Origin: Leptolyngbyaceae cyanobacterium SM2_5_2 | Lineage (GTDB): Bacteria > Cyanobacteriota > Cyanobacteriia > Phormidesmidales > Phormidesmidaceae | DNA length: 35,693 bases | Direction of reading: 5' to 3' | Assembly: GCA_012031045.1 (NCBI GenBank) | Contig: JAAUUR010000002.1 | Span: 1-35,693, forward strand | Shown: positions 17,428-25,810 of the stretch, in pieces | Layout of the letters: each line of letters begins with the position of its first letter | Numbering within the stretch: the stretch's first letter is position 1 | Translations under genes and position numbers: made by a program | Notes under the pieces: generated by a model | Database searches by the model: none | The model's input: only the letters and a program-made list of their open reading frames with translations | What the model was told of the DNA's origin: nothing

Positions 17428-18441
17428 ATGAGAAGGCAACTAGCACGATTTGGGCACTGGCGTCGCGCCTGGGCAATTGTTCACAACTGGATTAACAACA
17501 GCTATATGCTCGATTTTTTGAAGTATCGAGTAGGTCAGTCGCCGTGGGCTAAGCTAATTGGGCGCACACTATTAAAGTGGCAGCAGGATGAATGCCTGGA
17601 GATGGGGGCTGCCTTGGCTTACTATGGTGTGTTTTCGCTATTTCCAATGATTCTAGTGGTGTTGAGTGTGGTGGGCTTCTTGATTGGGCCGAGCAGTGCG
17701 GCTTTTAACACAGTGCTTAATTTCGCCCGCGAAGCCTTGCCTCCAGATGCCTTTCCTATCGTACAAACTACGCTAATTCAGTTCCATACTGGCAGTACCA
17801 GTGCGAGCATCATTGGTTTTGGTATTTTGCTGTTTACGGCTAGTGGTTTTTTTGGGGCCCTCAGTCGTTCCTTTGACAAGATTTGGCGGGTGGAGCCGAA
17901 TCATCGATTTGCTACTGGGGTGGGGGCGATCGCCCTCAATTTTATATGGCGACGGTTTTTAGCTTTTCTGCTAGTCATAGGATCGGCTGGGCTGGTGTTT
18001 ATATCGTTACTTTCTAATATTGCTATTGATGCACTACTGCGCTTGCTAGAACGATTCAACACCCTAGTAGCGCTAGAGACGTTGGCTCAAGTGCAGCTTT
18101 TACCCCTATTGCAATTAGGAGTATCTCTTGTGATTTTGATTCTGGTCGTTATGGTGCTGTACAAAGTTCTACCCCGTACCCGGGTCGCCTGGGGTGACAT
18201 TTGGCTAGGCGCACTTTTTACGGCCATTTTGTGGGTAATTTTGCAGCAATTGATCAGTAATAGTGTCATTAGCCTGGGCAGTCGGTTCCACTCCTACGGT
18301 GTGGTGAGTGGCTTTATGGTGCTGATGCTATGGATTTATTTAACTAGCCAGATTTTCTTTTTAGGTGGCGAACTCACCTACGTCTATGCTCACTTATTTG
18401 GCAGTCGGCGGGGGCATAAACGCCTTACCACAAAGCTATAG
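17428..18441 (+). CDS. YihY/BrkB-family inner membrane protein (start could be 17506)
   Basis: CLEMGAALAYYGVFSLFPMILVVLSVVGFL, ALSRSFDKIWRVEP, MVLMLWIYLTSQIFFLGGELTYVYA. Confidence 0.92.
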   Translation: MRRQLARFGHWRRAWAIVHNWINNSYMLDFLKYRVGQSPWAKLIGRTLLKWQQDECLEMGAALAYYGVFSLFPMILVVLSVVGFLIGPSSAAFNTVLNFAREALPPDAFPIVQTTLIQFHTGSTSASIIGFGILLFTASGFFGALSRSFDKIWRVEPNHRFATGVGAIALNFIWRRFLAFLLVIGSAGLVFISLLSNIAIDALLRLLERFNTLVALETLAQVQLLPLLQLGVSLVILILVVMVLYKVLPRTRVAWGDIWLGALFTAILWVILQQLISNSVISLGSRFHSYGVVSGFMVLMLWIYLTSQIFFLGGELTYVYAHLFGSRRGHKRLTTKL

Positions 18442-18486
18442 GCTCATCAATAATCTAGTTGGAGCTACAGACTGATGGGTTGGAGT

Positions 18487-21182
18487 TTAGCCGCGCCATC
18501 CCAGGAGAGCTAGAATTTGGTCGTCTTTGACGTGACTTACCAGATAGTCATGAACAAGCTGATAACGGCCAAGGGGAATTCCTGGCATCATAAATACCAA
18601 GCCTGAGCCTACCAAGACCTCCAGCACTAAGTCGAGCTGGTTGATTGTATAAAGTGCTCCTCGCAGTTTGAGTTCTTCCTCTAAATCTTCTCGACTTTTT
18701 TGAGGACGATAGAGGCGTTTCTCTCGGTCTATATCGGTGAGTAAGTAGAGAATGCCGCGGGCCAGCAACGCATTTTCTTGGCCACAGTCGTTTACGACAA
18801 CATCTAAAAAGCGTTGTACTAAGGTCTCCTTGGGGTGAGGGCCAAGTTGACGGTAGGCGGCCAGCGTATTAATCTCATCGCGCTGCAACTGGGCTCCTAC
18901 CACCTGGAGCTCGATAGGGCGCACCTGGTTGGCAACGGCAAGATCGGCTACTAGCTGGTGAATTAAAGCTTCTTCTAAGAAAAATTGAGCGCCCTGGGTG
19001 AGACGACGAATCAATACTTTTGCGTCGCTAGCCTGGAAGTTGCCGAGGTAATAGCGGTAGTCTCGGCTAAGAATGTCATAGCTGAGGCTATCCAGATCAA
19101 ATCCTCGCTCGATTTCAAGCAGGTAGTGTAGGTAATCTTCTCGGATGGCCAGCACGACCTTGATATAGGGCGTAGCTACGCATTCTACCAGAAAGGCATA
19201 CAGCTCTCGACGCTGAGCTAGCTCTGGGGATTCAGCCAGAAATTCCTCAAACTGATCGAAAATTAGCACAACTTGCCCATAGTGCTGCTCTGTGAGATCT
19301 CTAAGCCGAGTCAGAAGGGCAAAGGCATCGATTGCAGCGGCAGGCGGGGCAGCTTCGGTATTAGGGTCAACTCGTCGCTGAAGCGCTACCTCAAGGGCTT
19401 GATTAATGGCATCGGGCCAGTCACGGTAGCTGTTGACTAAGGCTGGAAACGTAGTTCGCCCTTCCGGGAAGGACTTAGTTAGGGCAGGTACCAGGCCACC
19501 GTAGAGGATAGAACTTTTCCCCACACCCGATGGCCCATGAATAGTGATTAACGGGTAACGGGGTTGCTCCAGGCGAGCAGTGAGGGCGGCAACGTCCTGA
19601 TCGCGTCCAGAGGCTTCTATCTCGGTAGCCAGCAAAGCCTGGATAGCGCTATCTGGACTCGTTGCTAAGGATTCTTGGGGCTGAATGTGGCTAGCCCCGA
19701 TGAAGGCACGCAGCTTAAATTGAGTATCCACCTGACGCTGCTGAAGCTTGATGCGAAAGGCCGCGCGGTAGTCTCGTCGGTTGTAGTGTTGCTGGCGCAG
19801 TATCTCTAAAATGCGTCGATAGAGGGGTAGGTCGAGGCTGGGTTGGGTTTGGTGGAGAGCGTCTTGTAGGCGGGCAATAGCGGTCTCTCCCTGTCCTAGG
19901 TCAATTTGGGTTTGGGCTAGCAAAACAGATACCAGCCCCGCTGGTAACGATCAGCCACCGTAAAGCCATCGTAGTTAGGATCTTCCTGCCTGACCTCAAC
20001 GGCCTCGGCAATGTCGAGAATATTCAGCGCTTTTTCAGCCGCGGCTTGAGCCGCCTGAATGTCTCCCCTGGCCAGGGCCACCTCGGCTAGGTAGCCATAG
20101 TCGCGGGCGAGCCGAACCGCATCACTACAGTGAAGAGCCAAGCCTTGGCGGGCAATCTCCTCCAAGCTGTCCCAGTCCTCCAGTTTTTGTTTGACCTCGG
20201 CCAGGGGATGTAGAAATTTGCCTACCCAGTCTAGCTGGTCATCCTCTCGGAAAATAGCCAGGCAGGCCGCAAAGCAAGCTTGGGCCTTTTCGAGCAGTTG
20301 CCGATAGACAACTCGCTGCACCGTCGCCCAACTGCGCCAAGTGACCCCCAGGTAGAACAATAAAATGGCTTGTTTTTGACGAGGGGTAGGGGTAGGGGGA
20401 GTGAGGGACAACGAGCCAGGCGCGGGCTCACCGGCCTGGGTTTGCCAGTAGGTGAGGCTCTGGTCGAAATAATACCGAGCCAGGTCGAGGTTGCTCTGGT
20501 TGAGGGCATCGCGCCCCTGGAGAAAATTTAGGCTGGCTTCGAGTTCAGTGTCTAGGAGCTGATGAGTTTGGGCTAAATCAACTAGGGCAAACTCTAGTTC
20601 GGTACGGAGGGTAGAACCGGGTTGATAGCGCAACGTATGGGCTGGGTAGGGGCTGTCATCCCCCAAGGAGAGCATGATGTTGAACAGGTCGTTAGCCTTT
20701 TGGTGCAGGGAGCGAACTAACTCTTCAGAGGGATAGTCAAACCGGATAGGGGCAGCGGCAAAGCTTTTGAAGTCAGGAGCATGGCGGTTAAGGAGAGCAA
20801 GGCTGCGGTCATTAACCCAGGCCACCAGAGGAAAGCTAAGGGTTTTGGAAAATTCATCGCGACCCAGGTTAGCCCCCTTGAAAAGGGCTTCGAGTTCCTG
20901 CACCACTTCAAAGCCGGTAATCATTAAAGCTGGCCCTGGTTGAGCGGGCAATCCCAGAACAATGGCGTGGCGCAGGTTTCTGGTCTGAGGCAGCAGTGCC
21001 ACAGCAACCACGGGTGTCGTGGCTTGCAGGTGCTTAACAAGTATGTTCTGTAAGCGTGCATAGTTGCATCGAGCTAGCACCAGAGAAAATTGATTGGGGC
21101 GCAGGGTAATAGCCCGCTTCAGTTCGGCCAGAGCGGTGTGGTTGTGGGCAATAATGGCTTCCTCAGAAAAGGGCGCATTCAT
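18487..21182 (-). CDS. N-terminal degenerate NTPase-like domain + TPR-like helices + STAND-type P-loop NTPase; split by an apparent frameshift at A4 run 19922-19925
   Basis: ORF 19917-21182 (NLGRDEFSKTLSFPLVAWVNDRSLALLNRHAPDFKSFAAAPIRF; helical repeats) and ORF 18487-19923 (Walker A GPSGVGKSS, Walker B VVLIFDQFEEF, C-term YQLVHDYLVSHVK). One added T joins ...RYQRGWYLF to LAQTQIDLGQGETAIARLQDAL. Confidence 0.75.
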
Positions 21183-21184
21183 GA

Positions 21185-22486
21185 TCAGCGTGACTGGGCC
21201 AGCCAGCTTTGGTAGCGAGTTGTTTCGGTCAATAGGGGGTTGATGCCAAACCAGCGGCCCTGGGGGTCACGATATTCGTAAAGAAACAGACTACGCACCA
21301 GAACGTTGTAGTCTTCGTCCCCCTGCACCGCCTGACGAGACACCGCCTGGAGCAGCAAAGTCCACTCATGATCGCTGACTAGACCGACCAGGCTATCGCG
21401 CTCATTGCGAATCACCGCCTCCAGGGTATCGCGTTGGAATGGCGGATCCTGCTTACGGAGGCAGCCATCGAGGAGGCGAATCAGGTTGCGCATGTGGCCA
21501 CCGCTGACGTGGCACAATCGATCCAGAGTAGCCAAATCCTCAAATACCTCGCCGACCTGGTCAATGCGCTGGTTCACATTCAGGTCAGGGAAAGCGCGAA
21601 TTAAAACCATTTGCCGCAGGAGGGCCAGTCCCTGTGAATTAGAGGTGCCGTCGCGATCCTGGAGCGGCACCATAGGCAGCACCAGCGGATTACTGCCAAA
21701 ACGATTGGACAACCGCACCAAATCATTAGAAAACATCAACTCCAGAGGAATGGTGTAAACCATGTGGCAGTCCAGCTGCTTGAGTTGCTCTCCCCGGTCT
21801 ACAAACAAGTATTCTGATTGCAACCGTCCCTGGCCTCTAGGCGCACTATCGACCCGATCCAGATTGTCCATAATGACCACTAACCGATTTTTATTCTGCT
21901 GCTGAAGGGCGGTATTCGCTGGGAGCAGCAACTCGTCATTAATAGCGGTGATGATATTCTTAGTGCGCGGCTCCAGGTATTGGCGGAGCTGACTACGCAT
22001 ATCCGGGCTTTGTTTGGCAGAGGCTGTAATGTTGGCAATGCCAGCGGAAAAGCTGACCTCTGAAATTTCCATTGGCGTTCGCAGGGTTTCGGCCAAATTT
22101 TGGAACAGCGTTTTTAAGTAATTTGGCTTAGTAACAATGCCAATGCTTTCCAGGTGCTCGCTAATATTGTGGGCGATGCTCAGCAAAATATCCGAGATTT
22201 CTACATCGGCCATTTCCAAATCGCGATCAGACTCGAAGTAGACGACTTCGTAGCGGCGCTGGGTGAGACCATTTTTGAGGCGAAACAGCTCCGTAGATTT
22301 GCCGCAGCCAATGTGACCCGTAAACAACTGAGTCGTCGGGCGATTGCTGGCCAGACGGGCAATTTTGCGCTCTAGCTCCTGCACCAGGTCGCCGCCGCGC
22401 ACGGTGGAAAAGTCGATGTAGTAACGCCTATCCCGCAGCGGCTGAGTGGGGTCGCAGGCTTCGTAGAACTCCTGGAGTTTCAGCAT
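21185..22486 (-). CDS. AAA+/STAND-like P-loop ATPase, first gene of the two-NTPase operon
   Basis: Walker A GHIGCGKST, Walker B RLVVIMDNLDRV. Stop codon is 2 nt from the start codon of the next gene. Confidence 0.8.
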   Translation of the reverse strand: MLKLQEFYEACDPTQPLRDRRYYIDFSTVRGGDLVQELERKIARLASNRPTTQLFTGHIGCGKSTELFRLKNGLTQRRYEVVYFESDRDLEMADVEISDILLSIAHNISEHLESIGIVTKPNYLKTLFQNLAETLRTPMEISEVSFSAGIANITASAKQSPDMRSQLRQYLEPRTKNIITAINDELLLPANTALQQQNKNRLVVIMDNLDRVDSAPRGQGRLQSEYLFVDRGEQLKQLDCHMVYTIPLELMFSNDLVRLSNRFGSNPLVLPMVPLQDRDGTSNSQGLALLRQMVLIRAFPDLNVNQRIDQVGEVFEDLATLDRLCHVSGGHMRNLIRLLDGCLRKQDPPFQRDTLEAVIRNERDSLVGLVSDHEWTLLLQAVSRQAVQGDEDYNVLVRSLFLYEYRDPQGRWFGINPLLTETTRYQSWLAQSR

Positions 22487-22709: not shown

Positions 22710-23168
22710 TTGAACGCCTGGCTGGGTCAATCGGTGCCCTGGGCGGATCGGGGCCATGACCGCCATCACGACTCAGTTAGGCTGGCACTACCGGATAATG
22801 CCTGCGGCCACGCTGCGCGAACGGGCGAAGCGCAATACCTGGATTTGGCGAGCCGGTCGCGGGTGGTGCCCATTGAAGGACATTCACCTTATACCTTCGA
22901 GGAATACGGCTGGCGCTTCGACATTGAGGAGGGGTTTCTCGACGACCAATCCAACGGCTGGAATCTCCAGAAATCCGAGATTCGCGACCTCTGTGCCCTC
23001 TCCCGGCTCTGGTTACTTGTGGCGGTCGCTACCCTCTATGTCACCGCCCAAGGGGGCGAAGTCGTTGCTGCGGGCTACCGTCGCTGGGTTGACCCCCATT
23101 GGTTTCGCGGCAATCGCTACTTTCGCATGGGCTGGGATTGGCTGAAAGCGGCCTTAGCGAACGGGTGA
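22710..23168 (+). pseudogene. Decayed DDE (IS4-like) transposase C-terminal fragment
   Basis: Pieces in alternate frames: VPWADRG, LGWHYRI...RNTWIWRAGRGW, RVVPIEGHSPYTFEEYGWRFDIEEGFLDDQSNGWNLQKSEIRD..LSRLWLLVAVATLYVTAQG; no N-terminal half. Confidence 0.65.
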
Positions 23169-24554: not shown

Positions 24555-25810
24555 TTACCCCAAATCTCCTAGCGCCTTGGCCACCGTCTGCACATCCTTA
24601 TCACCCCTGCCAGAGGAATTAATCACAATCCGGGGATTCCCAGCCAGTTGGGGGCAGAGGTATTCCAGGTAGGCAAAGGCGTGGGCCGTTTCTAAGGCGG
24701 GAATAATCCCTTCCAGGCGAGAAACCCGTTGAAAAGCATCCAGTGCTTCCTGGTCGGTAACACTATAATATTCGGCTCGTCCGGCATCCTTCAAAAAGCT
24801 GTGCTCAGGGCCAACGCCGGGGTAGTCAAGCCCCGCACTGATGGAGTGGGCCTCGATTACCTGGCCATCGCTGTCTTGCAGCAGGTAGCTCATGGCTCCG
24901 TGGAGCACGCCGACCCGACCCGCTGTTAGCGTGGCCGCATGTTTACCGGTGTCCACGCCGCTACCGGCCGGCTTCAATGCCAATCATCCGCACAGTGGGT
25001 TTCATCCACAAACTCGTGGAACAGACCCATGGCGTTAGAGCCGCCGCCCACGCAGGCCAGCAGAATATCCGGCAGGCCGCCAAATTTTTGCAGGCACTGA
25101 GCGCGGGTTTCTTCCCCAATGATGGCGTGGAAATCGCGCACCAGCATCGGGTAGGGGTGCGGCCCAGCCACGGAACCCAGAATGTAGTGGGTGGTTTCTA
25201 CATTTGTCACCCAGTCGCGGATGGCTTCAGAGGTGGCATCTTTGAGGGTGCCGGTACCGCCGCCACGCCCCGCACTTCCGCCCCCATCAGCCGCATGCGG
25301 AAGACATTCAGTGCCTGCCGCTCCATATCGTGAACGCCCATGTAAATAACGCACTGGAGGCCAAACCGGGCGCATACCGTAGCGGTGGCTACCCCGTGCT
25401 GGCCCGCCCCGGTTTCGGCGATAATGCGCGGCTTGCCCATGCGCTTGGCCAGCAACACCTGACCGAGGGCATTGTTAATTTTGTGCGCCCCCGTGTGGTT
25501 GAGGTCTTCGCGCTTCAGGTAAATGTCTGGGCCGTTGCCATCGGGGCGGCGATAGTGAGCCGTCAACCGTTCGGCAAAGTAGAGGGGGCTGGGCCGTCCT
25601 ACGTAGTCGGCCAATAACCCATTCAGCTCGGCCTTAAACTCGGCCTCGTCCCGATAGCGATAGAATGCCTGCTCCAACTCACTCAGGGCGGGCATTAGCG
25701 TTTCGGGCACGTATTTGCCGCCAAACTGGCCAAAGCGACCCAGGGCATCGGGGCGAGGGGCTTGAAGATTGGCAGCGGTTTGGCGGGGGGGAGATCGGCG
25801 TTTGGGTCAC
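24555..25810 (-). CDS. trpB: Tryptophan synthase beta subunit, broken by about four indels
   Basis: Three ORFs cover one protein: [24 protein letters not shown]..., [90 protein letters not shown]. Confidence 0.9.

Follow-up and report, generated by a model that had tools for sequence, protein, structure and literature searches.

A conserved cyanobacterial gene pair coupling an ORC/STAND-type ATPase to an nSTAND1 protein: a candidate two-component STAND switch

Background

STAND ATPases drive apoptosis in animals and immunity in plants and bacteria, and most of those known carry sensor, switch and effector in a single chain. The Avs proteins are an example, with an N-terminal effector, a central STAND domain and a C-terminal repeat sensor.

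In published contexts (Kaur et al. 2021, PMC8195603), nSTAND1 domains likewise share a single protein with effectors, EAD adaptors or sensors of the lectin type. nSTAND2 domains are found in a two-gene operon, in which the gene for an active STAND ATPase adjoins a gene whose product has a motif-less ATPase-like domain fused to variable modules (PMC8195603, Figure 6C). In the cyanobacterial locus described here, the switch seems to be split over two ATPases joined by a conserved P-loop-less domain, and effectors such as TIR are carried, in variants, by the partner ATPase.

The gene pair and its products

The window, that is the whole stretch of DNA analysed (35,693 nucleotides of contig JAAUUR010000002.1 from Leptolyngbyaceae cyanobacterium SM2_5_2), contains the following features:

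21185..22486, minus strand: gene A, an ORF for a 433-aa P-loop ATPase of predicted ORC/Cdc6-CED-4-STAND type
Elements of gene A: Walker A at aa 57-65, Walker B D207, SGGHxR motif with R333
19917..21182, minus strand: gene B part 1 (B1), 421 aa, from the ORF, its AlphaFold2 model and Foldseek TPR matches
Layout of B1: ND at about aa 1-150, a P-loop-less alpha/beta domain, then TPR-type helices
18487..19923, minus strand: gene B part 2 (B2), 478 aa, with the end of the helical region, nSTAND1 and a conserved YQLVHDYLV end
19917..19930, minus strand: one-base frameshift in gene B at a short T run, from DNA comparison with congeners
17428..18441, plus strand: yihY/BrkB-type membrane protein gene (Pfam PF03631, E 3e-53), convergent to A and B

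As the first-pass annotation of this DNA had reported, two minus-strand genes separated by two bases (21183-21184, B starting 2 nt past the stop of A) each have Walker A and B motifs: GHIGCGKST and VVIMDNLDRV in A, GPSGVGKSS and VVLIFDQFEEF in B. The ATPases of both are intact. Walker A is kept in 138/138 A genes of relatives, and the nSTAND1 domain of B relatives retains Walker A in 105/105 and Walker B in 99/105. Read across the frameshift, the whole of gene B (18487-21182) encodes about 898 aa. Around the pair lie yihY, rnd and the genes of a sigma factor and a HAD hydrolase. Of the stated location between yihY and rnd only one half is conserved, yihY being the sole flanking gene of the window kept in congeners (with a cysC-like gene between); rnd is not kept. 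A dead transposase had been placed next to the module, but the ORF concerned (22710-23168) gave no match in a Pfam search, leaving a transposase remnant unconfirmed.

The STAND, KAP and AAA models of Pfam match protein A below threshold only, and A is not a member of the P-loop ATPase Sll1717 family (NF047389; 21 bits against a cut-off of 75). With its AlphaFold2 model (pLDDT 88) as query, Foldseek returned Cdc6/Orc1 as the best match (E 9.5e-7) along with ORC, CED-4, Apaf-1, TnsC and RdrA, at TM-scores of about 0.3-0.5, which indicate a fold class and not a family. The C-terminus is modelled as a helix-hairpin region resembling a winged helix. By its modelled fold, A is an ORC/STAND-type ATPase with a predicted AAA+-like core and C-terminal winged helix. 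Solved structures related by sequence gave nothing meaningful for A, B2 or ND.

The second gene had been described as encoding TPR-like helices ahead of a STAND-type NTPase, and this order holds. The AlphaFold2 model of B1 (pLDDT 88) has an alpha/beta domain (residues 1-150 approximately) followed by TPR-type helices, for which the Pfam TPR match is below threshold, and B2 matches Pfam nSTAND1 (PF20703) over aa 106-464 (E 6.6e-31, 108.7 bits against a cut-off of 27.1). Judged by this profile match, B is a member of the nSTAND1 family with intact Walker A and B motifs.

The N-terminus of B, here called ND, had been read as a degenerate NTPase-like region. In the ND model, helices and strands alternate as in an AAA+ core, the P-loop is absent (0/124 sequences) and its position has shrunk to a short turn. 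R108, invariant in the ND alignment, lies ten residues before the fourth strand, and the invariant R231 of A is placed in the same way. Profile-profile comparison by hhalign (126 ND and 138 A sequences) gave a probability of at most 2% for homology. Sequence profiles therefore give no support to ND as a STAND relative or homologue of A, and an inactive STAND domain is kept as a structural suggestion: only the modelled order of strands and helices agrees with the earlier description. A PDB fold search with B1 as a guide to ND was uninformative, since TPR proteins dominate its matches. The model of ND would fit a partner domain with an inactive ATPase, and the A:ND copy numbers presented below suggest that it is probably the conserved partner domain of A.

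Conservation and inheritance

A was found in 43 and B1 in 41 of 59 related genomes searched, mostly adjacent to each other. In a sample drawn evenly across the phylum, A-type genes occur in 62/244 genomes, every one of at least 3.8 Mb. A scan of GTDB genomes yielded more than 550 A loci, the best 80 of which were analysed and are all cyanobacterial. Among these 80, the closest named relatives in A are Nodosilinea sp. WJT8-NPBG4 (86%) and Leptolyngbya sp. FACHB-60 (85%), and a same-strand ND partner directly follows A in 73, usually within 1 kb; 13 of the 73 partners overlap or abut A. Three of the seven loci without a partner have a contig end within 1.5 kb. The check that the first-pass annotation had proposed, conservation of the pair across cyanobacteria, thus comes out in its favour, as does its view that a second dedicated ATPase is coupled to the STAND protein: the two genes are strongly linked.

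The typical partner in relatives is longer than that of the window (1,620-1,900 aa) and consists of ND, a helical TPR region, nSTAND1 and a WD40 propeller. In the Nodosilinea branch, B stops directly after nSTAND1, without the WD40 tail. The reported absence of WD40 is accordingly true of the window lineage but not of most orthologues. As the WD40-less form accounts for five changes on the tree of 80 A proteins, the propeller was lost or gained repeatedly, also within the family of the window. More remote A paralogues share about 30-35% identity, and the ND downstream of them is joined either to TPRs and nothing else or to NACHT plus TPRs. With partners as varied as TPR, NACHT-TPR, TPR-nSTAND1 and TPR-nSTAND1-WD40, what stays constant is A plus ND, and this is the core of a conserved cyanobacterial module.

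Within the genus of the window, the pair is convergent to yihY in 13/15 loci and to a cysC-like gene in 14/15. No third conserved operon gene was found in the genus, these two convergent genes being the only ones to recur beside B. In most congeners the cysC-like (APS kinase) gene separates B from yihY; the window lacks it (18441-18487).

Pairwise distances over 40 loci situated beside ftsQ and ftsZ correlate strongly, both between A and FtsZ (r=0.96) and between A and B (r=0.98), and 0/999 permutations were as high. The chromosomal pair is therefore vertically inherited.

Some copies depart from the usual arrangement. One congener has an A paralogue apparently interrupted by a transposase-like ORF, with the ND partner remaining (L207, 2790-6999), and solitary ND-like genes of 167-176 aa with no adjacent A are present at two loci (L213, 6502-7002; L214, 11717-12244).

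Variants with TIR domains, doubled ND and ternary operons

A multi-gene form is found in 3/193 genomes of the Nostocaceae family, in which A is followed by a second A copy with a TIR domain (A'; PF13676, E 1.2e-31) and then by a B with nSTAND1 and no WD40. ND is doubled along with A'-TIR: two loci have two NDs in one B, and at another a separate ORF for a 143-aa ND stands ahead of the ND-nSTAND1 ORF. This match of two A proteins with two NDs is the strongest indication in these data that one ND serves one A. A and ND change together in copy number, and the effector sits on A. The statement that the module has no recognisable effector applies to the window copy; it fails for these three relatives, in which TIR is nevertheless not on the STAND protein. 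The TIR-bearing forms are rare and not orthologous to the window copy, and Calothrix sp. NIES-4101 carries one of them on a mobilizable plasmid.

A-type domains also occur in another type of operon. In one genome (locus L189), a 674-aa protein has an A domain as its C-terminal part. Its operon is of the MoxR-vWA-iSTAND type, the other members being iSTAND (PF19995, E 1.4e-20), a vWA protein of CoxE type and a MoxR-like AAA ATPase. A plasmid of Nostoc sp. C057 carries an A-like domain fused to the SAV_2336 N-terminal domain, with a MoxR gene adjacent. Effectors occupy the corresponding positions in MoxR ternary conflict systems (Kaur et al. 2020, PMC7159879). A paralogues were found on eight cyanobacterial plasmid records (the hosts including Calothrix, Nostoc and Acaryochloris), and an acidobacterial plasmid carries a more remote one. 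The plasmid-borne paralogues, together with the TIR and ternary-system variants, support a conflict-type origin.

What the pair may do

With the gene pair, its domains, their linkage, the copy-number covariation, the variants and vertical inheritance as computed observations, we read the operon as an NLR-like two-component STAND switch in which A is assembled with the ND of B and the output passes through A; we give this reading a probability of roughly one half. A, an ORC/CED-4-type ATPase, would be held by or assembled with ND, the TPR helices (and the WD40 propeller in most relatives) may sense or scaffold, and the nSTAND1 ATPase would act as a nucleotide-gated switch. A signal would cause B to open, to oligomerise and to gather A subunits, after which A would deliver the output. 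What this output could be is suggested by the variants, in which a second A carries a TIR domain, presumably NAD-consuming, or A-type domains take the effector slot of MoxR ternary operons. Because of these variants, stress or cell-death-type signalling from a vertically inherited chromosomal copy seems, by analogy, most likely for the window form, which has neither WD40 nor TIR. Counting against the switch are the lack of a visible effector and of a C-terminal sensor in the window copy, the rarity and non-orthology of the TIR-bearing forms, and the profile comparison, which does not relate ND to STAND domains.

The nSTAND1 and TIR modules, the paralogues on Calothrix, Nostoc and Acaryochloris plasmids and the presence of A-type domains within MoxR ternary conflict operons would also be expected of an Avs/NLR-type system for defence against phages, with a toxic output as yet unseen, and relatives of A weakly match, below threshold, antiphage or candidate-defence models. 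We find such a system doubtful, as the window orthologue occupies one site in nearly all congeners and follows vertical descent, the C-terminal sensor repeats are missing from the window copy, and no A-type gene was matched in 50,697 phage records. PADLOC 2.0 gave no significant match either, the best E values being 0.0033 for A (candidate PDC-S20) and 0.05 for B2. Mobile phage defence is the less likely function for the window copy. The first-pass annotation had envisaged a two-ATPase signalling or defence system; the two-ATPase pair stands and the variants support a conflict-type origin, but a vertically inherited, chromosomally anchored pair does not agree well with a mobile defence island.

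The site beside ftsQ and ftsZ

The position of the pair in other filamentous cyanobacteria makes a division-linked role a main rival to the two-component switch. Of 70 named loci, all from the best-scoring set, that extend far enough upstream, 47 have the pair divergent from ftsQ, mostly with ftsZ behind, at a gap of 101-3062 bp. As these loci were selected by score, a comparison by hand in the even phylum sample was added, which placed A within about 4 kb of ftsZ in 24/62 A-bearing genomes from at least 8 families, always divergent. Nostocales have PsbO-like and sigma-factor-like genes downstream of B. In seven genomes a TPR-type A gene lies 3-12 kb from ftsZ on its other side, so two A-type modules flank ftsZ in some genomes.

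The pair could then be a constitutive regulator linked to cell division or the filament, co-expressed with or acting on the divisome, with the ftsQ-ftsZ site being functional. The recurrent position divergent from ftsQ and close to ftsZ, the correlation of A and FtsZ distances and the frequent second, TPR-type A all speak for it. A common position can, however, be inherited without a common function; in the genus of the window and in many other genera, the pair does not lie near ftsZ (which is on contig C473 in the window genome), and the TIR, plasmid and ternary-system variants point elsewhere. We regard such a regulator as unlikely, even if a constitutive cellular role accounts for the fixed site of many relatives no less well than cell death does.

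The two-component switch may also be drawn more broadly. A plus ND would then be an undescribed two-ATPase core in which ND gates the ORC/CED-4-like A and to which sensors (TPR, WD40, NACHT) and outputs (TIR, the ternary slot) are fitted, and the copy beside ftsQ and ftsZ in filamentous cyanobacteria would physically link division control to an apoptosome-like checkpoint. This is speculative, and we put it forward tentatively. The system is old, vertically inherited in filamentous cyanobacteria and often beside division genes, and looks like part of the cell's own circuitry instead of a stray defence island. If its function proves to be in cell death or in the control of division, it would offer a testable case of immune-type machinery within normal bacterial multicellularity.

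Anabaena PCC 7120, whose ftsQ is alr3857 (PMC7766704), probably carries the pair at the same place, just beside ftsQ. A literature search, largely outside subscription journals, found no paper on the pair or its ftsQ-ftsZ site, and nothing useful on Anabaena all3855/all3856 or Npun2340/2341. The latter is a pair of Nostoc genes listed in the MNS STAND clade, and it is possible that the pair was glimpsed in earlier STAND surveys.

The frameshift in gene B

B is split near 19920 into B1 and B2, the shift being located at a short T run. A continuous B (903-1031 aa) is encoded by each of the 15 loci examined in congeners, in agreement with the earlier reading of a single protein of about 898 aa. 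The source genome is a 531-contig draft, 84% complete, and its sole trpB (24555-25740), some 4 kb from the operon, is broken over three frames. Given the split trpB and the intact congeners (15/15), the frameshift is most simply, and probably, an assembly or base-calling error. A programmed frameshift was ruled out, as none of the 15 congeners has one and trpB is broken nearby.

Contig C1 of the same genome carries another A paralogue, which is frameshifted too and lacks a B downstream (L084, 13198-14744); a PIN-like ORF on the opposite strand comes next. At this place, congeners (loci L074, L080, L081 and L101) have retained a paired partner (as two ORFs in L101). That the operon is a decaying pseudogene in the source strain, as the frameshift in B and this likewise frameshifted, B-less paralogue might suggest, is very improbable, since B is intact in 15/15 congeners, the Walker motifs of the window copy are undamaged and base errors are simpler in an assembly that also breaks the genome's only trpB.

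Comparison with known systems

None of the domain and defence libraries searched names the ND or A family, in line with the proposal that the pair is uncharacterised. Its closest relations are nonetheless recognizable. B2 belongs to the same domain family (Pfam) as the nSTAND1 conflict NTPases, but its nSTAND1 is fused to ND-TPR, and the ATPase paired with it is encoded by a separate gene. Avs and the NLR/apoptosome proteins CED-4 and Apaf-1 have a STAND switch and helical repeats in common with the pair, and the modelled fold of A is near both CED-4 and Apaf-1. The pair departs from the Avs/NLR plan in having two ATPases, repeats N-terminal to STAND and an effector that is absent or on the partner; the Avs layout was not found in the window pair, which has no effector and N-terminal TPRs, and in which B ends at nSTAND1. 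The MoxR-vWA-iSTAND ternary system (PMC7159879) occurs only in variant L189, the window locus being without MoxR, vWA and iSTAND.

The nSTAND2 operon embodies the same two-gene principle as A and B. In nSTAND2 systems the inactive partner bears a GT4 or HEPN effector, which is absent here: the partners carry TPR, nSTAND1, WD40 or NACHT only, and TIR is on A'. Neither A nor ND has an nSTAND2 match among the Pfam matches listed, ND has a P-loop in 0/124 sequences and no sequence relation between ND and A was found. nSTAND2 systems are described as mobile (PMC8195603), whereas A and B are chromosomally anchored, and B, unlike the partner in the nSTAND2 operon, holds a second, active STAND domain.
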